Assembly (NCBI GenBank): GCA_021292105.1
Contig: CM037870.1
Span: forward strand, 7,971,558 to 8,035,557
Length of the DNA stretch: 64,000 bases
DNA from: Anadara kagoshimensis
Lineage: Eukaryota; Mollusca; Bivalvia; Arcoida; Arcidae
Direction: 5' to 3'
Positions 32,436 through 62,948 of this stretch are shown piece after piece. A model generated the notes under the pieces. The model saw only the letters and a program-made list of their open reading frames with translations. It made no database searches and was not told the DNA's origin. A program made the translations under genes and the position numbers. Within the stretch, counting starts at the first letter, position 1. Each line of letters starts with the position of its first letter.

Positions 32436-35400
32436 CTGCAAATAAAAAATGTAAATATTAATTTAATTAGTCAACATATTCTGATTCTTACAATGTCAAA
32501 TGGATGGTTGTTATGCTCACTGCAAATCAAATTTGAGTATCACTTTAGATAGTCAACATATTATGATTCTTCCAATGTCAAATGGATGGTTGTTATGCTA
32601 TACAGTAAATTATGTTAATTTTGAGATATCTGTTTAGGTGATTTTTTTAACCAAAAGCTTTAAAACTTGAAGTGTCAGTGAAGCTTGTTTATATGCCAAA
32701 TATGTTTTTCTTAGGTCATAACACTTGACATATGCAGCTGAATTTGGAATGTGACACATTTTCTCATGTTGGTTAACATTTGTGCCAAATTTGATCAAAA
32801 GTCATCCACAGGCATGGTCAATATGCAGTGGACATGATAATGGCACTGGACAACCAGACAGACGGACAGACAGACAGGGTGATTCCTATATACCCACTAC
32901 ACTTTGTTAGTATGGGTACAAAAACTGATGTATAGGTAAACAACTTTGACCTGTCCGTTTTACCTTTAACTTAAATATTTATTATGGGCGACTGCATTTA
33001 TATATAGGAATCACATGGGTTTATTTTGTATATATAATGAGAACACTAATCACTTATCTTGTGTACACATTATTAACTGCGAATCTTACTACTACCTATG
33101 TATAGGATGGACTCTTCTATATGAATATTCCTAATGAAAGGTCAAATGGACAGGTCAATGTTGTTTGCCGATAATATGATATGATTGTAATATCCTTTAA
33201 TCTAACACTACATGAACTTAATTTTTGTGCTGTTTATTTCCATAAAAAAAATCCTAAAGCAAAGATTATGTGATGAGATTTCTTCACTGCACCTACTGTA
33301 ATATACAATCAAACCTGTCTTAAAGGCCAACTCTATATAAGGGTCATCTGCTTTTAAAGGTCAGTAAATTTTGTTATCCCAATGAGATACATATGGCGGG
33401 AAACAGTATCAAGACCTCTTCGTGTCTGCGGGACAGTGAATTGCCACAGACTGTTCACATTTCACTGTTGATTACGTCACTGATACCACCAATCAAAAGA
33501 TGTATCAAGATCTTATAATTTTAATCTTAAATTATAAGATCTAAATAAATTTTTACTGTTTACATGAATTTTTAAGAAATATGCTTCCCTGAAAACCGAA
33601 GACATTGTGACGTAAATAGTGTTATCAGTGACGTAATCAACATCGAAATGTGAATAGTCTGTGGCAATTCACTGCCCCGCAGACATGAAGCGGTCTTGAT
33701 ACTGTTTCCCGCCAAATGTATCTCATTGCTCTTTGTTCACATTATTTGAACCTGTAAATAAGGGTCACCTGCCTACAAAGGCCACTTTTACCGATTTCCT
33801 TAGGTGACTTTTATAGACAGGTTTGACTGTACATGTTTGTTTTGATATTATATATTTTAAGTTTATCTCTCTGTGACATCCCCAAGGAAATGTACACCAT
33901 AGTTAACCTCACAGGGCTGTTATACCCTCTTTTTGGTAATGGGTCCGGTGCCCTTGCATGATATTCGGAAAATAGATGTGGTTTGCTGCAATTTTTAGGG
34001 GAAACTTGTGGAAAAGTAATAGTTTATTAGAAAAGTGAAAGTTACAATTCTGTTGTAAATTTATTCAAATTATTACAATTCATGAAAATACTAGTATTTG
34101 GGAAAATCATAGGTTTTGAATATTGGGAATGGGGTCCATTTGGTGCCAAAATTAAGCAGATCTACAGCCCCTGGTAAACCAAAAGGAAAAAAGCCAAAGA
34201 AAAAAATACCTCAGACACCAAGCTTTTAAAAGTTATCCACAGTCATAGACTTCAGATAAAAAATGCTTCTCATCAAAAATTTGTACAGAAATGACTTATC
34301 TTTCTTATTTTTACTTACTTATCCTCTGAAGTTGACCAATTTGTCCATTTTGACTGTACTTCATGCCAATGGGATCACATCTCATCCTTTTTTGTAAATG
34401 AAAAACAATTGTATTATTCAGTACGTGTACAAACAAACTTCACAAGGTTCAGATATATGTATCATTCTTGCACCCCAGATAGAAAAATCCATAAAAAGAG
34501 AGGTGCAAGATATCTCCATCTTGTACTCCTCTGTGCAAGATAGCCTACACACTTTTTTCCCGCAAAATTGTATCAACAAAACCAGAGGTATATCGATAAT
34601 TGAAGTTGTATTTTCTGGTGCAAGAAATAGAATCAATCCCTACTTGTGGACCAAATATATTAGAACTCGGGTTGAGATTTCCCTATCTTGCACTGCAAGT
34701 TGTGATAGATTCTATTATTCTTATACCTCAGATAGAAAAATCCATCTTAAATCACTCACCCCTCTGCCTACACACAAATTTTTCTGCAAAGATTAAATTT
34801 AACAAAGAAAAATCTTAGTTAAGGAACAATTGTGACAGTTGGACAATTGGCCCCGATTTCACATTCATTCCTTAACTTAAATTTAGCTAATTTTGACCAT
34901 TTTTTTAAACTAAAAATTTATATTTTTGACAAAAACTGAACACAAATGTTATAAGCTTGAAGTGATCTTAAAACTGACACCTTAAATAACTCAATATCTT
35001 AAAAATTAACAAAAATATTACAGTATCAAATGCAGATTAAGTTAAGGAAATTCTTAGTTAAAGAATGGTTGTGCAACGAAGTAGGCTGCTTGCAAATAAA
35101 TTGTTGACTCAGGGATATTGCAAGCCTAGGCTTACCAAGGCCCTCAAAAAGTTTTATGGCCGTCATCACAGTATTGTTGATAAGTTTGATGTTTCTGTGT
35201 CCAGGATTGCCCTGGATATATTTGACGTCTCATAGTTCCATGTTCTTTTCACACAATTTTGATTTAACACGTGGCGGGTGTAGCTAGCTAAACAGGAGGT
35301 GCTTACCCTTCTGGAGCACCCAGCCTCACTTCCCTGGTGGAAGTTCACGTGTCTAACCTAACTTGTCCGTTCCAAAGTTTTTACTTTGCTTCTGGATTGC

Positions 35401-38400
35401 GATTTGGACATGGATTAGTATGTTTGTTTTTGATTGTGAAACCAAGGCCAGGCTCAAGTTTCACAATCATTCCTTAGCTAAAATTTTCCTAAACTTAAAT
35501 GTAGCAAAATTAAATCCATTAATATTTTGTTAATTGTTAAGATATTGGTGAATTTATTGTGTCATTTTAAAGATCCTATCAAGCTCATGACATCTGCATA
35601 TAGTTTTGACAAAATATTTATTCATTTTTCCAAAAAAAGATTGTCAAAATTTGCTACACTTAAGAATAATCTGAGTTGAAGAATGCTTGTGAAACAAAGG
35701 CCTAGCCCCAGTTTCACAATCATTCCTTAGCTAAGATTTTCCTTAACTTAAATTTTTAGCAAATTTTTGTAATCTCTTTTTGAAACTACTGATGAATATT
35801 TTTGTCAAAACTAAACGCAAATGTTTTAATCTAGAATTGATCTTAAAAATGACACCTTAAATTCCTTAATATCTTTAAAATTAACAAAATTATTAAGATT
35901 TGAAATTTTGCAAGATTTAAGTTAAGGAAAATCTTAGCTAAAGAATGCTTGTGAAACCGGGGCCAGCTGCATTAACTAATTAACTTCTTTGAATACAATC
36001 AAATTAGTTTCCTAATGCAAAACTGATTTTTTTTTAAATATCATCACAATATCTATCAACTAAATTCCTACTCAGACAGATCCTAGTGTGAAAATTTTGT
36101 CATTTCACTTGATGGTGGTTTGTTTTTGCTTTGGGTACTATGGTTGCCCAACCACTTTAAAATGGTTTGCCTTGATATAAGTGAACCGAAGTCTAGTGCA
36201 AAAAATGCCATTTATCTATTGCTTTCTTTCAAAAAAGGATCCTTCCTTGATGAGTGGTCTAAAGCAGGTGCTTACGGTCCAAATAAAAAGAAGTCCGATG
36301 GACCGGACCAAACTTTCAGGGGCCCTCATTACTGACTACAGCACCTCTCACTGCCTAGGGTCAAACCCCACTCAGGCGGATTTTTCTTTGGGTACTCTGG
36401 TTTCCTCCACCATTCCAGAACTGTCAGCCTCGATATAAGAGAAGTGAAGACTGGTGCAAAAATGCCATTTACCTACTGCACTCTTTCGAAAAAGGATGTT
36501 GGTGGCTGAGTGGTCTAAACCAGGGGCTTACGGACCACAGCACCTCTCAATGCCTAAGATTGACCCCCACTCAGGGCAGATGCTTGCTGGCTGAGTGTTT
36601 GAAAGCAGGCGTTTTCTTCTAAGTTTGAAACCTACTCAGGCAGATCCTAGTGTGAGAAGTTCTGTCCGTTCACATGCTTATTGCTGGTGTTTTCTTTGGG
36701 TACTCTGGTTTCCTCCACACACCATTCCAGAACTGTCTGCCTCGATATAAGTGATATGAAGACTAGTACATTTATCTGAGTTACTCTTCCTAAAATATAA
36801 TATTACTCACTGTATATTGTAGTGTGTCACTAATATAGTTCCTTGTTTGTTATTCTGATGGTAATCTTCTAACTTGGCTGCTTCATCTTGTACTAGTGTT
36901 CTCCATTGATGAGTTGGGTCCTGCCATTGCCAGGCATATACTACTTCCTGACTACCAGGAGGAACTTCTATAAGAGATATTATTTATACATAACAATCAA
37001 GTCACCCAAAATCCTTTTATGTAGAGTTATCTCCCATAACAGTTGCTATCTATAGATAACAAATTTGAATAGAAAATTTGAATTTAAATCTAATTTTGCA
37101 ACTTTATTTTCAAAAACCATTTCATGGTATAACATTTTTGAAATATCTCAATCTGACACACACACACACACATACACACACACACACACTGTCCAAAAAT
37201 TGATTTCAAGCATAGAAAACATAAAGTTCTTATTTGAAAAATAAAACGACAAAAAAATCTTTCATTTTGTTATTTGCTCTAGCGCTTTTCAGCACTCTTC
37301 AGGAGAAAATGTTAACAAAGTACCCAAACAAACTGAACTTTCTATATTCTCGTAGAAAGTTACTGTTGCCAATTTTCTCAATCATGTTAATAGGCAGGTT
37401 TCATGTTATACAATACTATAGTTTATGGTAATTAACAGCTTCTTTAAGAGCCAATTAAAAACTAGAACTGTCTCTTGAGAGCCAAACCCGCATCCAACAT
37501 TTAATGTTTTTCCGCGACCTTGAACTTTATGATATGACCTTGGTTCAAGGTCATGATACACTTTTAGACCATGAAGATTATTCATGTGAAGTTTTATGAC
37601 TGTCATCCAAAGCAGCTATGAGATATGGCCCGGACACGATTTTAAACAGACCTCAAACTAGTTTGCGTGGGTATAAAAACCTGATGTAAAATTTACCAAG
37701 TTTATGTATCTATTTATAAAGTATCACAAGGAACATTATTTTTAATCTTCACATACCCACTGGGATAGATCCACTGGTATATCCTGTATCAGGCTCTGTG
37801 TTAGCATGTCCATTTACTCTATAACATTCAAATAACACTATTAAAAATATTTTCTTGAATTATGTTCTTTAATACATCCAATGGAAGCTCAGTTGAACAT
37901 GTGAAAAACGAACTCTCAGTAAACCTAGACCCTGTCTAAATTTATTTAACTTGGAACCACGAGTAAAAAGCTAGACTGGAAATTATAAAACAGGGAACCT
38001 TGAGTAAATCTAGATAATGTCTAAATTTATAGTTTTATTTTTTAAAATTGTTATAGTACATCGGCGGGCTCCATTCTTATACTAAACCTAATAGGAATTT
38101 TAAGTCTCATTTGACATCATGACTTTGTACACAGATAAGAAAACAGACTTTGATTGGATATGTTAAGGTCAGTTGTAGTGTTGGACCGATTAATCGATTT
38201 AATCGATATCTAATAGTTTGAGCGTCCGATTAGCGATAATCGATTCTAAAATCTAATAATCGATAGATTTCGATTTTTTTCTGAAGTTCGTTTGTGGAAC
38301 GTCTCTTATAAAATAAGTATGAAATTGTAGCTGAAATGAGTGTACTTGGAAAAGAAAACTAACACAAATGTAAGGAAGAGTAAATGATCAGATAAAATGG

Positions 38401-40460
38401 AGGACATTTTAAGTCTTAACTGAGACACAAATATCTTGCAAATATTATCAAGACTAAAAATTACAATTTAATCTAATTTATTTTGTAATTTCCGCTTCAA
38501 GTTATTAACCGATTAATATCGGAAAATCGATCAAAATCATCTTCCGATTATAACCGATTAATTGATTATGAAAATACAACCGATTCCCATCACTAGTCAG
38601 TTGTTTAGTGACACCTGTCCATGCAGATTCTAAGTTCTAAGTACTATCTATTTTTATTGTGCCCAGACCACTATGAAAGCTTAGTTTGGAAAGTGCTTGT
38701 TTCATATGTGGGAGGTCGTGGGTTTGGATCCCAGCTGGAGTCTGACCAAGACTGGAAATTAGGTAGTGCACCTGGCACTCGGAAATGAAAGTCACGAAGC
38801 TCTTCAAAAGAGACCTTTAAAATTGATGGCCCGTGTCATGACAGGCATGGCACATTAAAAAATTCCTACACATTGTCCTGAGGGCAATGCAAAGGTCAAA
38901 ATACCTTCTGCTTTACCTATAGCTGGTAACTTGTTAAAAGAAATTATTCTTGACTGGGTTGTAAAACCAATCAATCAATCAATCAATCTAAAGCCCAAAA
39001 ATCACGAATCATGGATGGTCAAATGAGTGAGTAATGGTGTTTAACATCCCAGTCAAGAATATTTCACTTATATCGAGACATGGCTGGTCAAATGATTAGT
39101 CCTGGTGGTACTATATATCATAAGATAAACAAAAGCAGATAAAGTAATACTTACACTTCTAATTCATATTTATTGTCTTGTCCGAAGGAATATCTCTCTA
39201 CAACTTGACTTGGCCATCGAACCTAGTGACATGAAAATTAAAGAATGGATAACAGAACAAGATCATGTATGGTTTTACTCATTTAAGTAAACATTTTACT
39301 TAAAAAGTTTCATAAATATCCTAAACCCTGTCTTCGTTAATAACACTAATAATAATTTTCAGGGAAAGGGAATGGAGAGGGGAGGGTAATGGCATTATAT
39401 TGGGGTTTGGCAGTGTACCACAGGGAAAGGTAATGGAGAGGGGAGGGTAATGGCATTATACATGCATTGGGGTTTGGCAGTGTACCACAGGGAAAGGTAA
39501 TGGAGAGGGGAGGGTAATGGCATTATATCGGGGTTTGGCAGTGTACCACAGGGAAAGGGAATGGAGAGGGGAGGGTAATGGCATTATATTGGGGTTTGGC
39601 AGTGTACCACAGGGAGAGGGAATGGAGAGGGGAGGGTCATGGCATTATATTGGGGTTTGGCAGTGTACCACAGGGAAAGGTAATGGAGAGGGGAGGGTCA
39701 TGGCATTATATTGGGGTTTGGCAGTGTACCATATGATACCCCATAACTTTTATGTGAAACAATTATTTCCATTGGAGATGTAATTGTTGCAATTCATGTT
39801 TTCCTGCAAAAATGATGTTATTCTGGGAAAGTTTGGCATAAACGTTTTCCAAAACATTTCACACAAACGATAAGGGCTATTGATCATGTGGTACATGTAC
39901 ACTGGCGAACTCCTACAATGAAATGGGGGGGGGGGGGGGGTGTCTTCTAGTAATATTACAACTTACCTACACATTACAAGTTGTGAGTGTTCTACTGAAC
40001 TGTTTTATGTTGTAATTTACAACATAAAACAGTTCAGTAGAACACCCATGTTCAGTGTTAGGAGTTTCAGGTTTAAGTATTCATCTGAACCTGTTTTTTT
40101 TAAATTTCTTGTTACTGTAAATGTATTTATGTTCCCGGTGTACTAATTTTCAATTTTTCCTATTTGTTTGTTTTGCGTGAAAATTAATACCGAGTGAAAA
40201 ATTATATTACGCTTATTGTGTTATGATGCATATTTAAAAACTGTGAAAATTTAACTATGCGGATATGTCTAAATTTCATATATCTCAAAAATAAATACAC
40301 ACAAAATTAAATATGTTTACATTATTAAATAAACATGATGTATATTACATTGTATACTGTGTTATACTTACAGATACAGTTTTGTCCCTGTGTTTTCTTA
40401 TGACTATACCCATGGTTCCACTTCCACCATCTTCATCAGAATTTGGATTCCAATTTACAC
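32374..40460 (-). CDS. MIB/HERC2-WWE paralogue (gene 2), 5'-incomplete, six visible exons
   Basis: Minus-strand exons in coding order: 40460-40372, 39222-39155, 37818-37757, 36967-36811, 34386-34319 and 32435-32374. The phases in/out are 1/0, 0/2, 2/1, 1/2, 2/1 and 1/stop, identical to gene 1 exons 3-8. The visible product is ~168 aa: MIB/HERC2 (VNWNPNSDEDGGSGTMG, VRWPSQVVERYSFG, YELEV), linker, and WWE (YAWQWQDPTHQW, NKQGTILVTHYNIQ, MRCDPIGMKYSQNGQ). Upstream exons equivalent to gene 1 exons 1-2 are not in the readable sequence; the 65 bp array at 41.2-50.9 kb carries the predicted donor edge of the missing exon 2. It lies tail-to-tail with gene 1. Function is inferred as for gene 1: an ADP-ribose/ubiquitin-linked adaptor without a visible RING. 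Confidence 0.75.
32932..33172. mobile_element. MITE with GACCTGTCCG...CGGACAGGTC termini
   Basis: ACAACTTTGACCTGTCCGTT and AAATGGACAGGTCAATGTTG are inverted. Copies at 57834-58085, 58133-58386 and 58818-59055. Confidence 0.78.
33306..33832. mobile_element. MITE (CAAACCTG family) interrupted by another MITE
   Basis: The outer ends AATCAAACCTGTCTTAAAGG and TTATAGACAGGTTTGACTGT belong to the family at 30852. Host sequence around TTATCCCAAT and TTGCTCTTTGTTC is separated by the guest at 33384-33724. Confidence 0.82.
33384..33724. mobile_element. Nested MITE with ~130 bp TIRs
   Basis: GAGATACATATGGCGGGAAA at the left and TTTCCCGCCAAATGTATCTC at the right. The TIRs extend through TCACTGATA, and the centre is the palindrome AGATCTTATAATTT / AAATTATAAGATCT. 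It is flanked by AT on both sides, absent from intact host copies as a doublet. Confidence 0.82.
34319..34386 (-). CDS. Gene 2 exon: end of WWE domain
   Basis: 68 nt, phase 2 in and phase 1 out (GGATAA|GTAAGT). It encodes MRCDPIGMKYSQNGQIG and QLQRI. Its length and phases match gene 1 exon 7 (74 nt), but similarity is weaker and the acceptor tract (TTTACAAAAAAG) is poor. Confidence 0.62.
34848..35965. mobile_element. Cluster of three CCCAGTTTCACA MITEs with an inserted retroelement fragment
   Basis: MITE copies at 34848-35082, 35452-35700 and 35702-35965. Between the first two, 35100-35440 is the longest copy of the GTAGCTAGCT retroelement 3' end, starting in a degenerate coding end (LKKFYGRHHSIVDKF, DVSVSRIALDIFDVS, stop). 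It lies in the intron between the two WWE exons of gene 2. Confidence 0.75.
36110..36790 (+). mobile_element. Tandem cluster of truncated SINE A copies
   Basis: TGGTTTCCTCCACCATTCCA and AGAACTGTC-type tails occur at ~36400 and ~36710, and GGTGGCTGAGTGGTCTAAAC with box B-like AAGATTGACCCCCACTC near 36490-36580. At least three partial copies follow one another. Confidence 0.7.
36811..36967 (-). CDS. Gene 2 exon: WWE domain, main part
   Basis: 157 nt, phase 1 in and phase 2 out (ATACA|GTGAGT). It encodes EVPPGSQEVVYAWQWQD, PTHQWRTLVQ, KLEDYHQNNKQGTILVT and HYNIQ. The Trp pair, the KLEDYHQNNKQG segment and TILVT match gene 1 exon 6 position by position. Confidence 0.88.
37157..37190 (+). repeat. 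(CA)n microsatellite
   Basis: ACACACACACACATACACAC, about 17 dinucleotides with one interruption, between the linker and WWE exons of gene 2. Confidence 0.9.
37757..37818 (-). CDS. Gene 2 exon: linker
   Basis: 62 nt, phase 2 in and phase 1 out, donor GTATGT. It encodes VNGHANTEPDTGYTSGS and IPV, a polar linker like the 59 nt linker exon of gene 1. Confidence 0.72.
38176..38595. mobile_element. hAT-like MITE with 8 bp target duplication
   Basis: The termini TAGTGTTGGACCGATTAATC and ATACAACCGATTCCCATCAC-TA are inverted and imperfect. The direct repeat GTCAGTTG flanks both sides (38168-38175 and 38596-38603), the 8 bp size expected of hAT transposons. The interior has many CGATTA motifs. Confidence 0.85.
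38661..38990 (+). mobile_element. tRNA-derived SINE B, sense, with (CAAT)n tail
   Basis: It runs from a degraded A box (AAGCTTAGTTTGGAAAGTGC) and B box (GTGGGTTTGGATCCCAG) to the tail TTCTTGACTGGGTTGTAAAA followed by CAATCAATCAATCAAT. An antisense end fragment of the same family lies at 39022-39080. Confidence 0.78.
39155..39222 (-). CDS. Gene 2 exon: MIB/HERC2 second half
   Basis: 68 nt, phase 0 in and phase 2 out. It encodes VRWPSQVVERYSFGQDN and KYELEV, aligned with VRWDNGKRGNYRFG in gene 1. The donor is GTAAGT and the acceptor GTCACTAG. Confidence 0.85.
39359..39731 (+). repeat. ~61 bp minisatellite, six copies
   Basis: The unit contains AATGGAGAGGGGAGGGTAAT, GGCATTATATTGGGGTTTGG and CAGTGTACCACAGGGAAAGG. 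Its edge coincides with the end of the GTACCACATGATC MITE (39715-39915), so the terminus of that element was amplified. Confidence 0.9.
39987..40045. repeat. Perfect 29 bp inverted repeat with 1-base loop
   Basis: GTGTTCTACTGAACTG then TTTTATGTTGTAA is followed after one T by the exact reverse complement. It lies in the intron between the two MIB/HERC2 exons of gene 2. Confidence 0.9.
40372..40460 (-). CDS. Gene 2 exon: MIB/HERC2 first half
   Basis: 89 nt, phase 1 in and phase 0 out (TCT|GTAAGT). It encodes GVNWNPNSDEDGGSGTMG and IVIRKHRDKTVS. The required upstream exon must end in phase 1, ideally in VRRG; that sequence is present in the adjacent satellite unit. Confidence 0.82.
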
Positions 40461-41179
40461 CTTTATAAATAGGAATAATTATATAATATATAATTAATGG
40501 GGTTCACCGCTGTACCACATGATCAATGCCTTTTAACTTTTGTGCGGGACATTTTGGAAAATAATACAACTACAGCTGTCATGATAGGACACATTCCTTT
40601 AGTGTGAATGGTCTTGGCATGCCATGACATTTAAGTTCTTTGCTGTTAGAGGGGGGGGGGGGTTATTAAACACTTGCAAGAAGTTGCCAAACAAGTTGGC
40701 CCTGGACTGGAACCGGATCAACCGGTCAATTCCAATAATACTAGTAATTGTGAGGGAGGATTGTAGAGTGGACTAATGACACATCCCAGCATTGGACTCT
40801 AAACACCCTTACAATTGATAGACACCTAGATCAAGGTTTTTCTGGGCATTTTGGAAAAAGGACCATTAGAATGTATTTAGAAAAAAAAGAAAAAAAATCC
40901 ACAGTTTGGGAAAAATGAAAAAAAAAATTCTTATCTATTCATTATACATCCTTTAATACCGTAATAATCTTGCAGTACTAAGTATACAATATGTTTCAAA
41001 TGAGAATGAGTTTATCCCTTGTACATTACCATATGACTGTGTACATTCAGGTTATTTTGAAGACACACAAATTAAACTGAAAATATGTTGTTTTTTGACA
41101 CTTTTTCTTGAGTTTCCCTCTCAACGCTTATGCAGAGTCAATTTCGAAATTTTTACCAACAAAATTTGAAAAAATGTAT
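40461..41179. other. Gene 2 intron part with no exon
   Basis: A MITE end at 40498-40560, a poly-G run near 40650, A-rich tracts at 40880-40930. No MIB/HERC2-like exon on either strand was seen before the array starts. Confidence 0.6.
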
Positions 41180-44100
41180 ACATATTGGTATTGAGAATAG
41201 GCCCTACTTGACTCTGTGAGTGGCCAGAAAAGACCCTGTTATCATACCTCTTCTAACAAGAATGGGCCCTACTGGACCCTGTGAGTGGCCAGAAAAGTCC
41301 CTGTTATCATATCTCTTCTAACTAGAATGGGCCCTACTGGACCCTGTGAGTGGCCAAAAAAGTCCCTGTTATCATACCTCTTCTAACAAGAATGGCCCCT
41401 ACTGGACCCTGTGAGTGGCCAAAAAAGTCCCTGTTATCATACCTCTTCTAACAAGAATGGCCCCTACTGGACCCTGTGAGTGGCCAAAAAAGCCCCTGTT
41501 ATCATACCTCTTCTAACTAGAATGGGCCCTACTGGACCCTTTGAGTGGCCAAAAAAGTCCCTGTTATCATACCTCTTCTAACTAGAATGGGCCCTACTGG
41601 ACCCTGTGAGTGGCCAGAAAAGTCCCTGTTATCATACCTCTTCTTACAAGAATGGCCCCTACTGGACAGTGTGAGTGGCCAAAAAAGTCCCTGTTATCAT
41701 ACCTCTTCTAACAAGAATGGGCCCTACTGGACCCTGTGAGTAGCCAGAAAAGTCCCTGTTATCATACCTCTTCTTACAAGAATGGCCCCTACTGGACCCT
41801 GTGAGTGGCCATAAAAGTCCCTGTTATCATACCTCTTCTAACTAGAATGGGCCCTTTTGGACCCTGTGAGTGGCCAGAAAAGTCCCTGTTATTATACCTA
41901 TTCTAACTGGAATGGGCCCTACTGGACCCTGTGGGTGGCCAGAAAAGTCCCTGTTATCATATCTCTTCTAACTAGAATGGGCCCTACTGGACCCTTTGAG
42001 TGGCCAAAAAAGTCCCTGTTATCATACCTCTTCTAACTAGAATGGGCCCTACTGGACCCTGTGAGTGGCCAGAAAAGCCCCTGTTATTATACCTATTCTA
42101 ACTGGAATGGGCCCTACTGGACCCTGTGGGTGGCCAGAATAGTCCCTGTTATCATATCTCTTCTAACTAGAATAGGCCCTACTGGACCCTTTGAGTGGCC
42201 AAAAAAGTCCCTGTTATCATACCTCTTCTAACTAGAATGGGCCCTACTGGACCCTTTGAGTGGCCAAAAAAGTCCCTATTATCATACCTCTTCTAACAAG
42301 AATAGGCCCTACCCAACTGGACCCTGTGAGTGGCCAGAAAAGTCCCTGTTATCATACCTCTTTTAACAAGAATGGGCCCTACTGGACCCTTTGAGTGGCC
42401 AGAAAAGTCCCTGTTATCATACCTCTTCTAACAAGAATGGGCCCTACTGGACCCTGTGAGTGGCCAGAAAAGTCCCTGTTATCATACCTCTTCTAACAAG
42501 AATGGGCCCTACTGGACCCTTTGAGTGGCCAGAAAAGTCCCTGTTATCATACCTCTTCTAACTAGAATGGGCCCTACTGGACCCTGTGAGTGGCTAAAAA
42601 GTCCCTGTTATCATACCTCTTCTAACTAGAATGGGCCCTACTGGACCCTTTGAGTGGCCAAAAAAGTCCCTGTTATCATACCTCTTCTAACTAGAATGGG
42701 TCCTACTGGACCCTTTGAGTGGCCAGAAAAGTCCCTGTTATCATACCTCTTCTAACAAGAATGGGCCCTACCCTACTGGACCCTGTGAGTGGCCAGAAAA
42801 GTCCCTGTTATCATACCTCTTCTAACTAGAATGGGCCCTACCCTACTGGACCCTGTGAGTGGCCAGAAAAGTCCCTGTTATCATACCTCTTCTAACTAGA
42901 ATGGGCCCTACTGGACCCTGTGAGTGGCCAAAAAAGTCCCTGTTATCATACCTCTTCTAACTAGAATGGGTCCTACTGGACCCTTTGAGTGGCCAAAAAA
43001 GTCCCTATTATCATACCTCTTCTAACAAGAATGGGCCCTACCCTACTGGACCCTGTGAGTGGCCAGAAAAGTCCCTGTTATCATACCTCTTCTAACAAAA
43101 ATGGGCCCTACCCTACTGGACCCTGTGAGTGGCCAGAAAAGTCCCTGTTATCATATCTCTTCTAACTAGAATGGGCCCTACTGGACCCTTTGAGTGGCCA
43201 AAAAGTCCCTATTATCATACCTCTTCTAACAAGAATAGGCCCTACCCAACTGGACCCTGTGAGTGGCCAGAAAAGTCCCTGTTATTATACCTCTTCTAAC
43301 AAGAATGGGCCCTACTGGACCCTGTCAGTGGCCAGAAAAGTCCCTGTTATCATACCTCTTCTAACAAGAATGGGCCCTACTGGACCCTGTGAGTGGCCAG
43401 AAAAGTCCCTGTTATCATACCTCTTCTAACTAGAATGGGCCCTACTGGACCCTTTGAGTGGCCAGAAAAGTCCCTGTTATCATACCTCTTCTAACTAGAA
43501 TGGGCCCTACTGGACCCTGTGAGTAGCCAGAAAAGTCCCTGTTATCATACCTCTTCTTACAAGAATGGCCCCTACTGGACCCTGTGAGTGGCCATAAAAG
43601 TCCCTGTTATCATACCTCTTCTAACTAGAATGGGCCCTTTTGGACCCTGTGAGTGGCCAGAAAAGTCCCTGTTATTACCTATTCTAACTGGAATGGGCCC
43701 TACTGGACCCTGTGGGTGGCCAGAAAAGTCCCTGTTATCATATCTCTTCTAACTAGAATGGGCCCTACTGGACCCTTTGAGTGGCCAAAAAAGTCCCTGT
43801 TATCATACCTCTTCTAACTAGAATGGGCCCTACTGGACCCTGTGAGTGGCCAGAAAAGCCCCTGTTATTATACCTATTCTAACTGGAATGGGCCCTACTG
43901 GACCCTGTGGGTGGCCAGAATAGTCCCTGTTATCATATCTCTTCTAACTAGAATGGGCCCTACTGGACCCTTTGAGTGGCCAAAAAAGTCCCTGTTATCA
44001 TACCTCTTCTAACTAGAATGGGCCCTACTGGACCCTTTGAGTGGCCAAAAAAGTCCCTATTATCATACCTCTTCTAACAAGAATAGGCCCTACCCAACTG

Positions 44101-47100
44101 GACCCTGTGAGTGGCCAGAAAAGTCCCTGTTATCATACCTCTTCTAACAAGAATGGGCCCTACTGGACCCTGTGAGTGGCCAGAAAAGTCCCTGTTATCA
44201 TACCTCTTCTAACAAGAATGGGCCCTACTGGACCCTGTGAGTGGCCAGAAAAGTCCCTGTTATCATACCTCTTCTAACAAGAATGGGCCCTACTGGACCC
44301 TTTGAGTGGCCAGAAAAGTCCCTGTTATCATACCTCTTCTAACTAGAATGGGCCCTACTGGACCCTGTGAGTGGCCAAAAAAGTCCCTGTTATCATACCT
44401 CTTCTAACTAGAATGGGCCCTACTGGACCCTTTGAGTGGCCAAAAAAGTCCCTGTTATCATACCTCTTCTAACTAGAATGGGTCCTACTGGACCCTTTGA
44501 GTGGCCAGAAAAGTCCCTGTTATCATACCTCTTCTAACAAGAATGGGCCCTACCCTACTGGACCCTGTGAGTGGCCAGAAAAGTCCCTGTTATCATACCT
44601 CTTCTAACTAGAATGGGCCCTACCCTACTGGACCCTGTGAGTGGCCAGAAAAGTCCCTGTTATCATACCTCTTCTAACTAGAATGGGCCCTACTGGACCC
44701 TGTGAGTGGCCAAAAAAGTCCCTGTTATCATACCTCTTCTAACTAGAATGGGTCCTACTGGACCCTTTGAGTGGCCAAAAAAGTCCCTATTATCATACCT
44801 CTTCTAACAAGAATGGGCCCTACCCTACTGGACCCTGTGAGTGGCCAGAAAAGTCCCTGTTATCATACCTCTTCTAACAAGAATGGGCCCTACCCTACTG
44901 GACCCTGTGAGTGGCCAGAAAAGTCCCTGTTATCATATCTCTTCTAACTAGAATGGGCCCTACTGGACCCTTTGAGTGGCCAAAAAAGTCCCTATTATCA
45001 TACCTCTTCTAACAAGAATAGGCCCTACCCAACTGGACCCTGTGAGTGGCCAGAAAAGTCCCTGTTATTATACCTCTTCTAACAAGAATGGGCCCTACTG
45101 GACCCTGTGAGTGGCCAGAAAAGTCCCTGTTATCATACCTCTTCTAACAAGAATGGGCCCTACTGGACCCTGTGAGTGGCCAGAAAAGTCCCTGTTATCA
45201 TACCTCTTCTAACTAGAATGGGCCCTACTGGACCCTTTGAGTGGCCAGAAAAGTCCCTGTTATCATACCTCTTCTAACTAGAATGGGCCCTACTGGACCC
45301 TGTGAGTGGCCAAAAAAGTCCCTGTTATCATACCTCTTCTAACTAGAATGGGCCCTAATGGACCCTTGAGTGGCCAAAAAAGTCCCTGTTATCATACCTC
45401 TTCTAACTAGAATGGGTCCTACTGGACCCTTGAGTGGCCAAAAAAGTTCCTATTATCATACCTCTTCTAACAAGAATGGGCCCACCCTACTCGACCCTGT
45501 GAGTGGCCAGAAAAGTCCCTGTTATCATACCTCTTCTAACAAGAATGGGCCCTACCCTACTGGACCCTGTGAGTGGCCAGAAAAGTCCCTGTTATCATAC
45601 CTCTTCTAACAGAATGGGCCCTACCCTACTGGACCCTGTGAGTGGCCAGAAAAGTCCCTGTTATCATACCTCTTCTAACAAGAATGGGACCTACCCTACT
45701 GGACCCTGTGAGTGGCCAGAAAAGTCCCTGTTATCATACCTCTTCTAACAAGAATGGGCCCTACCCTACTGGACCCTGTGAGTGGCCAGAAAAGTCCCTG
45801 TTATCATACCTCTTCTAACAAGAATGGGCCCTACCCTACTGGACCCTGTGAGTGGCCAGAAAAGTCCCTGTTATCATATCTCTTCTAACTAGAATGGGCC
45901 CTACTGGACCCTTTGAGTGGCCAAAAAAGTCCCTATTATCATACCTCTTCTAACAAGAATAGGCCCTACCAAACTGGACCCTGTGAGTGGCCAGAAAAGT
46001 CCCTGTTATTATACCTCTTCTAACAAGAATGGGCCCTACTGGACCCTGTGAGTGGCCAAAAAGTCCCTGTTATCATACCTCTTCTAACAAGAATGGGCCC
46101 TACTGGACCCTGTGAGTGGCCAGAAAAGTCCCTGTTATCATACCTCTTCTAACTAGAATGGGCCCTACTGGACCCTTTGAGTGGCCAGAAAAGTCCCTGT
46201 TATCATACCTCTTCTAACTAGAATGGGCCCTACTGGACCCTGTGAGTGGCCAAAAAAGTCCCTGTTATCATACCTCTTCTAACTAGAATGGGCCCTACTG
46301 GACCCTTTGAGTGGCCAAAAAAGTCCCTGTTATCATACCTCTTCTAACTAGAATGGGTCCTACTGGACCCTTTGAGTGGCCAAAAAAGTCCCTATTATCA
46401 TACCTCTTCTAACAAGAATGGGCCCTACCCTACTGGACCCTGTGAGTGGCCAGAAAAGTCCCTGTTATCATACCTCTTCTAACAAGAATGGGCCCTACCC
46501 TACTGGACCCTGTGAGTGGCCAGAAAAGTCCCTGTTATCATACCTCTTCTTACAAGAATGGCCCCTACTGGACCCTGTGAGTGGCCATAAAAGTCCCTGT
46601 TATCATACCTCTTCTAACTAGAATGGGCCCTTTTGGACCCTGTGAGTGGCCAGAAAAGTCCCTGTTATTATACCTATTCTAACTGGAATGGGCCCTACTG
46701 GACCCTGTGGTGGCCGAAAAGTCCCTGTTATCATATCTCTTCTAACTAGAATGGGCCCTACTGGACCCTTTGAGTGGCCAAAAAGTCCCTGTTATCATAC
46801 CTCTTCTAACTAGAATGGGCCCTACTGGACCCTGTGAGTGGCCAGAAAAGCCCTGTTATTATACCTATTCTAACTGGAATAGGCCCTACTGGACCCTGTG
46901 GGTGGCCAGAATAGTCCCTGTTATCATATCTCTTCTAACTAGAATGGGCCCTACTGGACCCTTTGAGTGGCCAAAAAAGTCCCTGTTATCATACCTCTTC
47001 TAACTAGAATGGGCCCTACTGGACCCTTTGAGTGGCTAAAAAAGTCCCTATTATCATACCTCTTCTAACAAGAATAGGCCCTACCCAACTGGACCCTGTG

Positions 47101-50100
47101 AGTGGCCAAAAAAGCCCCTGTTATCATACCTCTTCTAACTAGAATGGGCCCTACTGGACCCTTTGAGTGGCCAAAAAAGTCCCTGTTATCATACCTCTTC
47201 TAACTAGAATGGGCCCTACTGGACCCTGTGAGTGGCCAGAAAAGTCCCTGTTATCATACCTCTTCTTACAAGAATGGCCCCTACTGGACAGTGTGAGTGG
47301 CCAAAAAGTCCCTGTTATCATACCTCTTCTAACAATGGGCCCTACTGGACCCTGTGAGTAGCCAGAAAAGTCCCTGTTATCATACCTCTTCTTACAAGAA
47401 TGGCCCTACTGGACCCTGTGAGTGGCCATAAAAGTCCCTGTTATCATACCTCTTCTAACTAGAATGGGCCCTTTTGGACCCTGTGAGTGGCCAGAAAAGT
47501 CCCTGTTATTATACCTATTCTAACTGGAATGGGCCCTACTGGACCCTGTGGGTGGCCAGAAAAGTCCCTGTTATCATATCTCTTCTAACTAGAATGGGCC
47601 CTACTGGACCCTTTGAGTGGCCAAAAAGTCCCTGTTATCATACCTCTTCTAACTAGAATGGGCCCTACTGGACCCTGTGAGTGGCCAGAAAAGCCCCTGT
47701 TATTATACCTATTCTAACTGGAATGGGCCCTACTGGACCCTGTGGGTGGCCAGAATAGTCCCTGTTATCATATCTCTTCTAACTAGAATGGGCCCTACTG
47801 GACCCTTTGAGTGGCCAAAAAAGTCCCTGTTATCATACCTCTTCTAACTAGAATGGGCCCTACTGGACCCTGTGAGTGGCCAGAAAAGCCCCTGTTATTA
47901 TACCTATTCTAACAAGAATAGGCCCTACCCAACTGGACCCTGTGAGTGGCCAGAAAAGTCCCTGTTATCATACCTCTTCTAACAAGAATGGGCCCTACTG
48001 GACCCTGTGAGTGGCCAGAAAAGTCCCTGTTATCATACCTCTTCTAACAAGAATGGGCCCTACTGGACCCTGTGAGTGGCCAGAAAAGTCCCTGTTATCA
48101 TACCTCTTCTAACAAGAATGGGCCCTACTGGACCCTTTGAGTGGCCAGAAAAGTCCCTGTTATCATACCTCTTCTAACTAGAATGGGCCCTACTGGACCC
48201 TGTGAGTGGCCAAAAAGTCCCTGTTATCATACCTCTTCTAACTAGAATGGGCCCTACTGGACCCTTTGAGTGGCCAAAAAAGTCCCTGTTATCATACCTC
48301 TTCTAACTAGAATGGGTCCTACTGGACCCTTTGAGTGGCCAGAAAAGTCCCTGTTATCATACCTCTTCTAACAAGAATGGGCCCTACCCTACTGGACCCT
48401 GTGAGTGGCCAGAAAAGTCCCTGTTATCATACCTCTTCTAACTAGAATGGGCCCTACCCTACTGGACCCTGTGAGTGGCCAGAAAAGTCCCTGTTATCAT
48501 ACCTCTTCTAACTAGAATGGGCCCTACTGGACCCTGTGAGTGGCCAAAAAAGTCCCTGTTATCATACCTCTTCTAACTAGAATGGGCCCTACTGGACCCT
48601 TTGAGTGGCCAAAAAAGTCCCTGTTATCATACCTCTTCTAACTAGAATGGGTCCTACTGGACCCTTTGAGTGGCCAAAAAAGTCCCTATTATCATACCTC
48701 TTCTAACAGAATGGGCCCTACCCTACTGGACCCTGTGAGTGGCCAGAAAAGTCCCTGTTATCATACCTCTTCTAACAAGAATGGGCCCTACCCTACTGGA
48801 CCCTGTGAGTGGCCAGAAAAGTCCCTGTTATCATATCTCTTCTAACTAGAATGGGCCCTACTGGACCCTTTGAGTGGCCAAAAAAGTCCCTATTATCATA
48901 CCTCTTCTAACAAGAATAGGCCCTACCCAACTGGACCCTGTGAGTGGCCAGAAAAGTCCCTGTTATTATACCTCTTCTAACAAGAATGGGCCCTACTGGA
49001 CCCTGTGAGTGGCCAGAAAAGTCCCTGTTATCATACCTCTTCTAACAAGAATGGGCCCTACTGGACCCTGTGAGTGGCCAGAAAAGTCCCTGTTATCATA
49101 CCTCTTCTAACTAGAATGGGCCCTACTGGACCCTTTGAGTGGCCAGAAAAGTCCCTGTTATCATACCTCTTCTAACTAGAAAGGGCCCTACTGGACCCTG
49201 TGAGTGGCCAAAAAAGTCCCTGTTATCATACCTCTTCTAACTAGAATGGGCCCTAATGGACCCTTTGAGTGGCCAAAAAAGCCCCTGTTATCATACCTCT
49301 TCTAACTAGAATGGGTCCTACTGGACCCTTTGAGTGGCCAAAAAAGTCCCTATTATCATACCTCTTCTAACAAGAATGGCCCTACCCTACTGGACCCTGT
49401 GAGTGGCCAGAAAAGTCCCTGTTATCATACCTCTTCTAACAAGAATGGCCCTACCCTACTGGACCCTGTGAGTGGCCAGAAAAGTCCCTGTTATCATACC
49501 TCTTCTAACAAGAATGGGCCCTACCCTACTGGACCCTGTGAGTGGCCAGAAAAGTCCCTGTTATCATACCTCTTCTAACAAGAATGGGACCTACCCTACT
49601 GGACCCTGTGAGTGGCCAGAAAAGTCCCTGTTATCATACCTCTTCTAACAAGAATGGGCCCTACCCTACTGGACCCTGTGAGTGGCCAGAAAAGTCCCTG
49701 TTATCATACCTCTTCTAACAAGAATGGGCCCTACCCTACTGGACCCTGTGAGTGGCCAGAAAAGTCCCTGTTATCATATCTCTTCTAACTAGAATGGGCC
49801 CTACTGGACCCTTTGAGTGGCCAAAAAAGTCCCTATTATCATACCTCTTCTAACAAGAATAGGCCCTACCAAACTGGACCCTGTGAGTGGCCAGAAAAGT
49901 CCCTGTTATTATACCTCTTCTAACAAGAATGGGCCCTACTGGACCCTGTGAGTGGCCAGAAAAGTCCCTGTTTCATACCTCTTCTAACAAGAATGGGCCC
50001 TACTGGACCCTGTGAGTGGCCAGAAAAAGTCCCTGTTATCATACCTCTTCTAACTAGAATGGGCCCTACTGGACCCTTTGAGTGGCCAGAAAAGTCCCTG

Positions 50101-50928
50101 TTATCATACCTCTTCTAACTAGAATGGGCCCTACTGGACCCTGTGAGTGGCCAAAAAAGTCCCTGTTATCATACCTCTTCTAACTAGAATGGGCCCTACT
50201 GGACCCTGTGAGTGGCCAAAAAAGTCCCTGTTATCATACCTCTTCTAACTAGAATGGGTCCTACTGGACCCTTTGAGTGGCCAAAAAAGTCCCTATTATC
50301 ATACCTCTTCTAACAAGAATGGGCCCTACCCTACTGGACCCTGTGAGTGACCAGAAAAGTCCCTGTTATCATACCTCTTCTAACAAGAATGGGCCCTACC
50401 CTACTGGACCCTGTGAGTGGCCAGAAAAGTCCCTGTTATCATACCTCTTCTTACAAGAATGGCCCCTACTGGACCCTGTGAGTGGCCATAAAAGTCCCTG
50501 TTATCATACCTCTTCTAACTAGAATGGGCCCTTTTGGACCCTGTGAGTGGCCAGAAAAGTCCCTGTTATTATACCTATTCTAACTGGAATGGGCCCTACT
50601 GGACCCTGTGGGTGGCCAGAAAAGTCCCTGTTATCATATCTCTTCTAACTAGAATGGGCCCTACTGGACCCTTTGAGTGGCCAAAAAAGTCCCTGTTATC
50701 ATACCTCTTCTAACTAGAATGGGCCCTACTGGACCCTTTGAGTGGCCAAAAAAGTCCCTATTATCATACCTCTTCTAACAAGAATGGGCCCTACCCTACT
50801 GGACCCTGTGAGTGGCCAGAAAGTCCCCTGTTATCATACCTCTTTCTAACAAGAATGGGCCCTACCCTACTGGACCCTGTGAGTGGCAGAAAAGTCCCTG
50901 TTATCATATCTCTTCTAACTAGAATGGG
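41180..50928 (-). repeat. Satellite array 2: ~150 copies of a 65 bp unit containing a 5' splice site of gene 2
   Basis: The plus-strand unit is TACTGGACCCTGTGAGTGGC, CAGAAAAGTCCCTGTTATCA, TACCTCTTCTAACAAGAATG, GGCCC. Read on the minus strand (the coding strand of gene 2) it contains CCAGTAGGGCCCATTCTTG then TTAGAAGAG|GTATGA. That encodes PVGPILVRRG and a phase-1 donor, exactly what must precede the first visible gene 2 exon (G|VNWNP). A common variant carries a 5 bp CTACC insertion, giving 70 bp. Near-identical blocks recur (see the higher-order repeat finding). The right end runs into the N gap. Confidence 0.93.
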
Positions 50929-51928
50929 NNNNNNNNNNNNNNNNNNNNNNNNNNNNNNNNNNNNNNNNNNNNNNNNNNNNNNNNNNNNNNNNNNNNNNNN
51001 NNNNNNNNNNNNNNNNNNNNNNNNNNNNNNNNNNNNNNNNNNNNNNNNNNNNNNNNNNNNNNNNNNNNNNNNNNNNNNNNNNNNNNNNNNNNNNNNNNNN
51101 NNNNNNNNNNNNNNNNNNNNNNNNNNNNNNNNNNNNNNNNNNNNNNNNNNNNNNNNNNNNNNNNNNNNNNNNNNNNNNNNNNNNNNNNNNNNNNNNNNNN
51201 NNNNNNNNNNNNNNNNNNNNNNNNNNNNNNNNNNNNNNNNNNNNNNNNNNNNNNNNNNNNNNNNNNNNNNNNNNNNNNNNNNNNNNNNNNNNNNNNNNNN
51301 NNNNNNNNNNNNNNNNNNNNNNNNNNNNNNNNNNNNNNNNNNNNNNNNNNNNNNNNNNNNNNNNNNNNNNNNNNNNNNNNNNNNNNNNNNNNNNNNNNNN
51401 NNNNNNNNNNNNNNNNNNNNNNNNNNNNNNNNNNNNNNNNNNNNNNNNNNNNNNNNNNNNNNNNNNNNNNNNNNNNNNNNNNNNNNNNNNNNNNNNNNNN
51501 NNNNNNNNNNNNNNNNNNNNNNNNNNNNNNNNNNNNNNNNNNNNNNNNNNNNNNNNNNNNNNNNNNNNNNNNNNNNNNNNNNNNNNNNNNNNNNNNNNNN
51601 NNNNNNNNNNNNNNNNNNNNNNNNNNNNNNNNNNNNNNNNNNNNNNNNNNNNNNNNNNNNNNNNNNNNNNNNNNNNNNNNNNNNNNNNNNNNNNNNNNNN
51701 NNNNNNNNNNNNNNNNNNNNNNNNNNNNNNNNNNNNNNNNNNNNNNNNNNNNNNNNNNNNNNNNNNNNNNNNNNNNNNNNNNNNNNNNNNNNNNNNNNNN
51801 NNNNNNNNNNNNNNNNNNNNNNNNNNNNNNNNNNNNNNNNNNNNNNNNNNNNNNNNNNNNNNNNNNNNNNNNNNNNNNNNNNNNNNNNNNNNNNNNNNNN
51901 NNNNNNNNNNNNNNNNNNNNNNNNNNNN
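50929..51928. other. Assembly gap, exactly 1000 N
   Basis: The round length suggests a placeholder, not a measured size. It begins inside array 2 and ends in an (AG)n tract. Missing pieces expected here are the 5' exons of gene 2 and the signal-peptide exon of lectin 1. Confidence 0.98.
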
Positions 51929-52164
51929 AGAGAGAGAGAGAGAGAGAGAGAGACTTTTTTGAACTGTTTTATTTTTATTTCAAGTAATGTTTGCTAAATT
52001 GAAAGTACACTACACGAATTTAAAATATTTAAATTTTCCTTAGAATGTATAGTCAAATTATAACCTAATGTAATTATTTAATTATTAAATTAATTAAATT
52101 AATTAAATTAAACAAATGCGCTTCAGTGTCGTGCCATAATGATAATGATGTTCTTTTATTAAAG
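51929..52164. repeat. (AG)n microsatellite and AT-rich flank before lectin 1
   Basis: About 12 AG units at 51929-51953, then AT-rich sequence with a TTAAT/AATTA repeat near 52075-52110. No exon is seen before the acceptor at 52164. Confidence 0.8.
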
Positions 52165-52428
52165 ACATCAACAGCTGTCCTCCACAGTTACACAGGACAA
52201 AGTATTTAGTTGCATATAAAAACAGTACCTGCCTAGAGATTCATACGTCATCATACAAATGGGTCAATGCGAGAAAGGACTGCCAGAGCCGACATGGAGA
52301 TCTTGTACAGATACCAACGGCGGAAAAACAGAGCTTCATAATGTCACAACTTAAACGGCTTTATGCTGGGAAGGTGTGGATTGGTGCTACGGATAGGGAC
52401 CAAGAAGGCAAATGGCTTTGGGTATCAG
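52165..52428 (+). CDS. Lectin 1 exon: CTLD first half
   Basis: 264 nt, phase 1 to 1. It holds the first three Cys, the DAR/NAR-type W..ARKDCQS motif and WIGA. It has exactly the same length as the homologous exon of lectin 2 (62651-62914), and both begin D-I-N-x-C-P-P. Confidence 0.92.
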
Positions 52429-55400
52429 GTATATACGATACAATTATACAGTCAGACCTGTCTATAAATGCCACCCAAGGGAACTAATGAAAGTGGCCTT
52501 TATGAGCAGGTGACCTTTATGAGCAGGTCACTTTTATATACAGGTTAAAATAATGTGAATAAAGATCAATTGGGATACATTTCAACTGGCCTTTATCAAC
52601 AGGTTGTCCTTATATAGAGGTGGCCTTAAAGGCAGGTTTGTCTGTATTTTTAATGCAACGTTCGATTTTCTTAATTTTACGAACATTTTTATGTTTTCTA
52701 TGTATTAAGCGATGTATATTAAGTTGTTCTTAAAGGCGTTTCGACGTTGTAATTAGAGTAACGTCAAGTTTTCTGCAGCAAATGTATTTACTAAACGACA
52801 ACAATTCTTCTTGTAAATTCTGTGTTGTAGCGGTACGTTTTCTTAATATTGCGAGACTTCTTACAATTGACGTATCGCCGGTCACGCCTGCACCTGTAAT
52901 GTTCCGACACTGGCCGCAATCACGCTACCAAAGCAGCGTCACGGCAACTGATGACGTTCTGGTGCCAGTGACGTCATTAAATGGCACAATTCAGGTCGAG
53001 TTTTCACTCTTTTTGTGTGTAATTCAAGCATGACTGGCCTTTGTCGGGACATTAATTGTGGGCGTGGCCGGCGATATGTCAATTCTTATAAATTCTGTTT
53101 TGTTGCGTTAAGTTTTCTTGTGATTGCGAGACTTCTTACAATTCTACTATCTTTGAATTTTCTGTATTTGATTTCAGGTCAAGTTATGAACGGTCATTAT
53201 GGAAACTGGAGGTCTGGACAAGGTCCGACACAGTCAGGGTTTTTATTTTGGAATGGAATGTTTGAAGACTGTGCTTTGTTAGACTATTCAGATGCCGGTA
53301 GATGGCATGACTACATGTGTAATTCTTTACTTCATCGGTTTGGGTATATATGTGAATATAGTAAGTAATTAAAATATAAGTATGATATCTCTGAATCCAA
53401 AATTACCCTGGATATATTCGACGTTCCATAGTTTCATGTTCTTTTTATTCTCAATTTGGATTGCACGTGGTGGGTGTTACTAACTGAACAGGAGGTGCTT
53501 ACACTTTCGGAGCACCCGGCTTCACTTCTCTAGTGGAAGTCCACGTGCTATAAATAAATTTTTCCATTTTCAAAGTTTTTGATTGTGGTTTCTAAAAACG
53601 ATGATCGGTATGTTTGTTTTTTATTTGAAAGGGACATGTACATGCATTTTAAGTGAAATAAAACTTTTAACCTCATTTTATCTATTTCTTTGTTTTTGTC
53701 TTTTTAACAGGAAAATATAGCATGTACACTATTATTCTAATGTAGCTTTAGTTATAATTATACAGTGTTTTACTGAAAATATCTAATTTCCAAATGTATT
53801 AGTTTTCTAGTATACTGGATTAAAACATGTGGACTTTGACTGCAAGAACGGCCGAACTTCTTTTGTCGTGTCGGAAGCCATTAAAATTTTTGGGAGGTTT
53901 TGTGATGAAACCATTTTGGAAAAAAAAATGTTGGACGACAAAAGGGGTTTACTTTGGAAAGATATCTTCTCTATATTCTACTTACAGACCAGCTTGGCCA
54001 GTCTGATGTTTTGCCTTCAAAAACAACCAAAGCCCAGATGCCAAACACAAGAATAACGTCTCGTCTTACAAAACAGAGTGTTCGTGGTCAACATACGACC
54101 AACAGGAAAGCCATACAAACAACCAAACTCTCCGTTCTCAAAACGAGCACGACTAGAAGGACCTCATCGCCGACAACTGTTAATTTAAGTACAACCAAGA
54201 CTGCTGCTGTCCAAACATCTAGTTTAAAACCTGGAACTGGTACTAACACAACAACTCCTTCACAGAGCTCCAACAAATCGAGAACGCCAAAACCTACAAA
54301 TAAGCTTCCATTTGGACATAGCGTTAACACAAAGACAACACAAAAAAGTAAACAAAGTTCTGTCCAACAGCAAAACGGGAAAAAGTCAACATCAACAAAA
54401 GCAACTGTAAAGCCACAAAATGGAGTAGGTAAGGCGGATTTTAGATAATGGTGTTGTTATCTAAATAGGTTTGACAATACAACACAGAAAATTGTATTAT
54501 GTAACATGTATTATGATTTTATTTCGTTACGTCATGTAATGCTTGATACATTTACTACGGATCCTGTAAGGTTAAGTGTGAAAAATAGTTATTTTGAAAT
54601 TTCGAATTAGTATTTCGCTATTCGAAATAGTATTTCATTATATTTGCTATAGATATTTCGTATTTTGGAATATTCAGACTACTATTAGTATTTCGAAAAT
54701 ACGAAATAAGTAATGCGAAAATACGAAACCACTTTTGTGAAAAAACCCGAATTAATTATACGAAAATTACGAAATAACTTTTTAAGAACGTCAGTTTACT
54801 GGCTTAATAGTTTAACTCGCATGCTTAGCTAATCACAGTGTCTCTCACTACTTACGTCAGAATTCCGCTTTGGACGATCATAGTACGGTGAGAAAAGCAA
54901 AGTTTGCTTGTAGAAGGAAGGTAGCTTTCTCAAGTTTCAATTTTTCTTTTTCTCATACTGCAATAAAATATTCAACTTGAAAAAAACCACTCAGGTTTCC
55001 TCCAAGAACTGGCTTTCTCAATAGTAAATAGATATTGACTGGGACCTTAAACTAAAACCTAAAACCTCATTACTGCACTACACACCATTGCAGTATACCA
55101 GTAAAGTTGTTTTGTTTTAAAATATGTAATTATTTATATGTATATGAATTAATAGGCGAGCGTCATCTTGTTTTTTGTATGTTGTAGTTGCCCATCAAGC
55201 ACAGAACAAAAAGAATGATTCAACAAAAGGTGAGCTATTTAAAATACTAAATGAGTAACACATATACATGCCGGGTTGCTGTTTGGTAAAGTATTTGTGG
55301 GTGCCACTGGCTGGTAAATAGCGGAATGTCCCCCAAAAACACTTTATGCTATGATATCCGAATAATGTGCAATATTGACCATAAGTAGGTAGTTTGAATA

Positions 55401-62914: not shown

Positions 62915-62948
62915 GTAAGTATACGCCATACAAAACAATTAATTGAAA

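Follow-up and report, generated by a model that had tools for sequence, protein, structure and literature searches.

A 65-bp tandem array of ~147 units lies in gene 2, one of two inverted paralogues carried by a 64,000-nucleotide stretch of the genome of the clam Anadara kagoshimensis (hereafter the window; C14:7971558-8035557 on a 72.7-Mb contig of a 1.1-Gb assembly in 36 contigs). The array occupies positions 41194-50928 of the window on the minus strand, the strand of gene 2, and is very probably a 5′-boundary "mirage" minisatellite, part of its unit being transposon, that sits at a missing exon of this gene. Mirages are known from amphioxus, where they are tandem repeats placed over exon-intron boundaries, either 5′ or 3′, with units of 10-160 bp and with splicing reportedly left undisturbed (PMC3087553); their copy number is also reported to be unstable. 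Amphioxus examples are Adh3 and the globin genes BflGb6 and BflGb9, and also PGBD5 and TnC (PMC3087553, PMC3902484).

The array was delimited by Tandem Repeats Finder (TRF), unit alignment and donor counts. Each unit reads TTGTTAGAAGAG|GTATGATAA followed by CAGGGACTTTTCTGGCCACTCACAGGGTCCAGTAGGGCCCATTC, with the bar marking the putative splice donor. TRF run on the window reported a period of 65, 147.1 copies and a 92% match over 41194-50928 (~10 kb), which agrees with the ~150-fold satellite proposed in a first-pass annotation of this DNA. The minus-strand reading quoted there also holds, apart from its CTTGTT, which is slightly rarer than CTAGTTAGAAGAG: of 146 units, 79 have A and 66 have T at the base preceding GTT, and leucine is encoded either way. 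Fuzzy search with patterns that themselves include the splice site, as was also used for the donor and acceptor counts of the other arrays given below, picked 147 donor blocks; GT was kept in 130/147, LVRR was encoded by 131/147, and exact GTTAGAAGAG|GTATG was present in 107/147. The length was 69-71 bp in 39/146 units, with an extra TAGGG within the part encoding PVGPI in those that were read. The 146 complete units comprised 58 distinct sequences that recur in order, indicating block duplication. The array adjoins an assembly gap of exactly 1000 N (50929-51928) at its high-coordinate edge, the side on which the missing exon should lie; no other run of at least 5 N occurs in the 184 kb read.

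In each unit, ~44 of 65 bp represent the terminus of a terminal-inverted-repeat (TIR) element, and the satellite unit is homologous to a dispersed element of this genome. When 401 bp of the array was compared with the same assembly, matches of 34-57 bp each were returned at no fewer than 8 loci, all on other contigs; this count is a lower bound because only the best candidates were scored, common words were skipped and the array itself was missed. Ten copies of the dispersed element were read at 8 loci, two of which hold two copies. The copies have a common start, CAGGGA[TC]TTTTCTGGCCACTCACAGGGTCC...CCCATTC, followed by a longer shared body, and their flanks on the opposite side are unrelated. 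The unit was identical to a by-eye majority sequence of the dispersed copies in 42/47 columns, with gaps in 3 of the 5 others. By eye, the source element was read as a TIR DNA transposon with inverted termini CAGGGA[TC]TTTTCTGG and 5-bp target duplications (AGTCA at L001, ATGTG at L002, AATAG at L004b, AAGGA at L007 and CAAAC at L006); these duplications were seen in 5/6 of the other element copies shown, the sixth being without its far end. The last array unit, at the low-coordinate end, continues unbroken into the body of the element (~410 bp, 40831-41239, minus strand), whose longest aligned pieces, of up to 433 bp, are 70-77% identical to L001, L002, L005 and L007. The remainder of the unit, the 21 bp TTGTTAGAAGAG|GTATGATAA, was in the flanks of none of the 10 dispersed copies read. 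That these 21 bp are a built-in part of the element was rejected, since the flanks differ at the 10 copies.

On the strand of gene 2, the 21-bp part reads LVRRG with a phase-1 donor. The first gene 2 exon downstream of the array (40372-40460, minus strand; VNWNPNSDEDGGSGTMGIVIRKHRDKTVS), which encodes the first half of the second MIB_HERC2 domain, opens GT|GTA AAT TGG, so that a preceding phase-1 G is required, exactly as the first-pass annotation had pointed out. The same junction in homologues reads EVGCCVKRG|QDWNPNSEEDGG in P0017 of Tegillarca and EVGCSVKRG|PDW in P0018 of Ostrea, with the junction position set by alignment in both, and AVGVRVRRG|gt with a phase-1 intron in gene 1. A unit-like exon end had been expected among homologous proteins; VKRG was indeed found at the junction in P0017 and P0018, and the spacing of the PVGPI part was off-family, the unit having VG-3-V versus VG-2-V in the MIB_HERC2 family. 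In gene 1 itself, the annotated exon end AVGVRVRRG|gt was located, at 11950/11951. A second gene 1 exon end proposed there, PVGTRVRRGKDW (from 2088), is internal to an exon that spans 1980-2181 on the plus strand and encodes the start of the first MIB_HERC2 domain.

Such an exon end is rare in this region. The motif set by the homologues, V[KR]RG|GT, occurred at 1 in 220,796 positions when 134 kb was scanned on both strands with six arrays masked, and this single site was the true donor of gene 1. VxRG|GT was found at 8 sites; the seven besides the one at 11941 were without MIB context, except for a VG at 62077 (plus strand). A profile was also built from 20 distinct MIB_HERC2 domain-start segments of 18 proteins and applied to both strands of 184 kb with ten arrays masked. 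Only 1/3,248 G|GT sites scored as high as or higher than the LVRRG of the unit, and that one was again the gene 1 true donor. The unit had been described as the donor edge of the missing exon, and this appears right for the last 12-13 nt of the exon, which match the homologue-predicted end in the right phase and on the right strand; the other parts of the unit are 44 bp of transposon and 9 bp of intron.

The corresponding arrangement is readable in gene 1 (plus strand; Pfam PF06701 at 2.2e-29 and WWE at 4.1e-10, both over cutoff), where two arrays have units that span splice junctions, with the authentic site at the edge nearest the exon, as shown by array edges that run into exons. The first is a 93-bp x 101 array (2643-11834, plus strand) in which each unit comprises the 3′ end of an intron, the acceptor AG|GC, the exon start GWVTVEWDSH and a dispersed-repeat-like fragment. 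Part of this unit (ACTCCGGTTTTCTCCACCATCCCTGAAC) resembles other regional sites and L001 at 72-86% over 28-47 bp. The acceptor in its 101 blocks was AGGC in 87, AGGA in 8, ATGC in 4 and AGCT in 2. The final 93-bp copy runs on as the real exon GWVTVEWDSHNKGKYRFGAEAAMDV...AVGVRVRRG|gt (11807-11950, plus strand), the homologue of the missing gene 2 exon, and the exon PDWEWGSQDGG... that follows at 12882-12967 (plus strand) has as its paralogue in gene 2 the exon at 40460. The second array, 94 bp x 46 with a 97% match, is located just left of the window (L014:5361-9700, window about -4639 to -300). Its unit joins the final 79 nt of an exon predicted in gene 1 to 15 bp of intron start (GTAAGTATTGTATAG), its left edge continues from that exon as ttttatag|ACAATAACTGCTAAG...CTGATA|gtaagt, and GTAAGT is intact in 46/46 blocks, so that it reads as a clear 5′-boundary mirage. 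The predicted exon beside it keeps an open frame, and its phase 0 is compatible with the exon that comes next; Pfam returned no match for it, and none of the 18 proteins matched it convincingly. The arrangement in gene 1 is the one inferred for gene 2, the corresponding edge of which falls in the gap, and the homologous exon would be touched from opposite sides by the 93-bp array in gene 1 and the 65-bp array in gene 2.

Several observations weigh against a gene 2 exon end within the unit. The exonic match is only 12-13 nt long, and the unit peptide alone has no Pfam match. When all 8 residues of the profile are used, the score of the unit falls to background, with 6/3,247 sites as high; such a drop is expected if the reading enters the transposon and only ~5 residues are exonic. 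The U1 pairing of the unit donor, -5.8 kcal/mol, is weaker than that of all 10 predicted donors tested in gene 1 and gene 2 (-6.6 to -8.3), although only 6.4% of 2,999 random GT sites pair as strongly. At the element copy of the array, no clear target duplication was seen, the left side being GATAA and the right side ATCTA (GATCT if one base was lost). The search behind the dispersed loci leaves room for the 21 bp elsewhere in the genome. Finally, the missing upstream exon was not seen when P0017 and P0018 were searched by tblastn on the minus strand upstream of 40460, in the window (among the matches listed, up to 40 per query), in the window with flanks (E ≤5, rows of the 93-bp array dropped) and in 80 kb past the high side (E ≤3). 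Residues 1-168 of P0017 had no minus-strand match upstream of 40460 up to 80 kb beyond the window. The upstream gene 2 exon probably sits in the N gap.

In the strongest competing explanation, the array is a purely transposon-derived intronic minisatellite, the 21 bp are random intron and the LVRRG|GT is a coincidence. Transposon makes up 44/65 bp, U1 pairing is weaker at the unit donor than at any of the 10 predicted donors tested, the upstream exon is not visible, and a nearby 68-bp array left of the vWA exons of gene 1 provides a purely intronic example. A coincidence is nevertheless unlikely, as the score of the unit is reached by 0/3,247 G|GT sites once the gene 1 true donor is set aside, the phase, strand and position all fit the missing exon, and two arrays of the same architecture can be read in gene 1.

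A regulatory role of the arrays is still less probable. More than 100 U1-binding donors in gene 2, or acceptors in gene 1, could act as functional decoys and regulate the paralogues, either by titrating splicing factors or by holding back the transcript or slowing it. The retention of GT in 130/147 and of GTAAGT in 46/46 blocks is consistent with such a role, and all three arrays contain a unit that meets an in-frame stop when its site is used: the reading runs through VRRGMITGTFLATHRVQ in the 65-bp array, QYLIVSIV in the 94-bp array and HP in a 93-bp copy before the stop, so that use of a decoy would be unproductive. The donor is, however, no more conserved than the other unit positions. Across the 65-bp units the donor G is conserved at 90% and the donor T at 100%, and many transposon positions are likewise at 100%; with no excess of donor conservation over transposon positions, there is no sign of donor selection and no functional claim is made. 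The amphioxus mirages also reportedly leave splicing undisturbed (PMC3087553).

The first-pass annotation had taken all 65 bp of the unit as the end of an exon and the start of its intron, with PVGPILVRRG as coding sequence, and this is hardly credible: the literal translation does hold, its VG resembles the VGxxVxRG of the family, and LVRRG and the donor stand as the 21-bp part, but PVGPI was rejected as exon because its CCAGTAGGGCCCATTC is a subterminal part of the dispersed TIR element and belongs to the terminus common to the other loci (at least 8), the VG spacing is off-family and the 8-residue profile score is ordinary.

The boundary minisatellite with a chimeric unit probably arose in three steps. 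A short TIR transposon would have inserted 9 bp into the intron downstream of the missing exon of gene 2. Tandem duplication would then have affected a 65-bp segment that began with the final 12-13 nt of this exon, ran through the donor and 9 bp of intron, and ended 44 bp into the transposon. Growth to ~147 copies by repeated block duplication followed, as the unit variants and their block order show. The authentic exon and its donor would be expected at the upstream (high-coordinate) edge of the array, within the N gap. Splicing would presumably take place at the exon-proximal donor, leaving ~130 GT-bearing copies as intronic decoys, and the array is probably tolerated, its one effect being to lengthen the intron by ~10 kb. 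From sequence comparison, the arrays of both genes are best read as a neutral amplification of junctions in which the exon-proximal site is spliced, as would presumably hold for gene 2 too.

A more speculative reading, which we consider doubtful, is that runaway tandem amplification strikes preferentially at the exon-intron junctions of this genome or gene family. A junction-linked process may build the arrays, and decoys may affect expression; such a process is proposed because two inverted paralogues hold three kilobase-scale junction arrays, two of which flank a homologous exon. Co-transcriptional breakage and RNA-templated copying are examples of processes linked to junctions. Of 8 arrays >400 bp in the 134 kb scanned, 2 demonstrably span a splice junction and 1 does so by inference; 3/8 is suggestive, and too few for a rate.

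The assignment of gene 2 is based on domain and protein matches, which identify it as a predicted MIB_HERC2-WWE gene. Its Pfam scores are just below the cutoffs, and the assignment rests also on P0017 and P0018. Downstream of the exon 40372-40460, four further exons were read on the minus strand: the second half of the MIB_HERC2 domain (39155-39222, VRWPSQVVERYSFGQDNKYELE), a linker exon (37757-37818, VNGHANTEPDTGYTSGSIPV), a WWE exon (36811-36967) and a next exon with approximate ends (34317-34384, MRCDPIGMKYSQNGQIGQLQRIS), which matches P0017 residues 284-315. PF06701 was scored at 2.8e-4 for the exon 40372-40460 in a query that began with a presumed VRRG, and at 1.4e-7 (31.8 bits vs a cutoff of 33.5) with the next exon included and no VRRG, the domain being partial. 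WWE (PF02825) was scored at 9.1e-4 (20.0 vs a cutoff of 21.1) for its first half only. In a protein search restricted to about 283-900 aa, the best match was P0017 of the blood clam Tegillarca granosa (86/125 aa identical), an orthologue, residues 169-315 of which fall in order on gene 2 (40470-40369, 39222, 37832, 36959 and 34412). A protein search for fragments from the same species found nothing.

Other arrays were noted nearby. A 34-bp x 11 array (L014:1312-1687, window -8688 to -8313) with 9 exact GTAAGT lies beside a vWA exon; it was not counted as boundary-spanning because it starts ~40 bp inside the intron. The 68-bp array (x 89; L015:336-6313, window -19664 to -13687) is intronic and lies ~60 bp beyond an open frame that carries a GTAAGT donor, and its unit by eye is like a dispersed repeat of the locus. 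Past the gap, plus-strand open frames at 52149-53368 and 62623-62946 are presumably C-type-lectin-like, and a 25-bp x 67 array (85% match, 59290-60962) lies in this lectin-like region; its edges were read and no exon relation was seen. A 27-bp x 40 array (L011:586-1658, window 84586-85658) is apparently placed in a threonine/proline-rich frame and is possibly coding.

Repeated splice donors have precedents. A human minisatellite in which a donor site is tandemly repeated, as proposed for the 65-bp array, is cited as Turri et al. 1995; its unit is reportedly short and borders an exon, and its donors are reportedly used in the transcript. The arrays described here are like the amphioxus mirages in that many units retain splice signals and that the repeats span a boundary in gene 1 and probably in gene 2. 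They differ in copy number, which is 3 and 6 in the BflGb6 haplotypes (PMC3087553) compared with 46, 101 and ~147 in the clam arrays, and in that the gene 2 unit and part of the 93-bp unit are chimeric with dispersed repeats and that the host is a bivalve and not a cephalochordate; the presence of three arrays in two inverted paralogues, two touching a homologous exon from opposite sides, also sets them apart from known mirages. Variable tandem repeats at exon-intron boundaries have been described in human duplicated genes, where they sometimes yield new introns through activated cryptic splice sites; like the clam arrays, these are tandem repeats at a boundary in paralogues, recent ones in human (PMC2812944). 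Satellites derived from transposons in animals, bivalves among them (e.g. PMC6947457, PMC12628747 and PMC8268682), are alike in having a terminus expanded to an array, whereas the clam unit probably carries host exon and a splice site as well. No molluscan splice-junction array was described among the literature matches listed by narrow word searches.

In the literature consulted, mirages come from genes of amphioxus, and the example described most fully has 3 and 6 copies. The presence of 46 to ~147 junction copies in two bivalve paralogues would widen this process, which here would reach 10 kb. If the proposed origin is true, the insertion of a transposon beside a splice site would be a way to seed a satellite, and the locus allows a direct test of how the spliceosome chooses one authentic site among ~100 near-identical neighbours.

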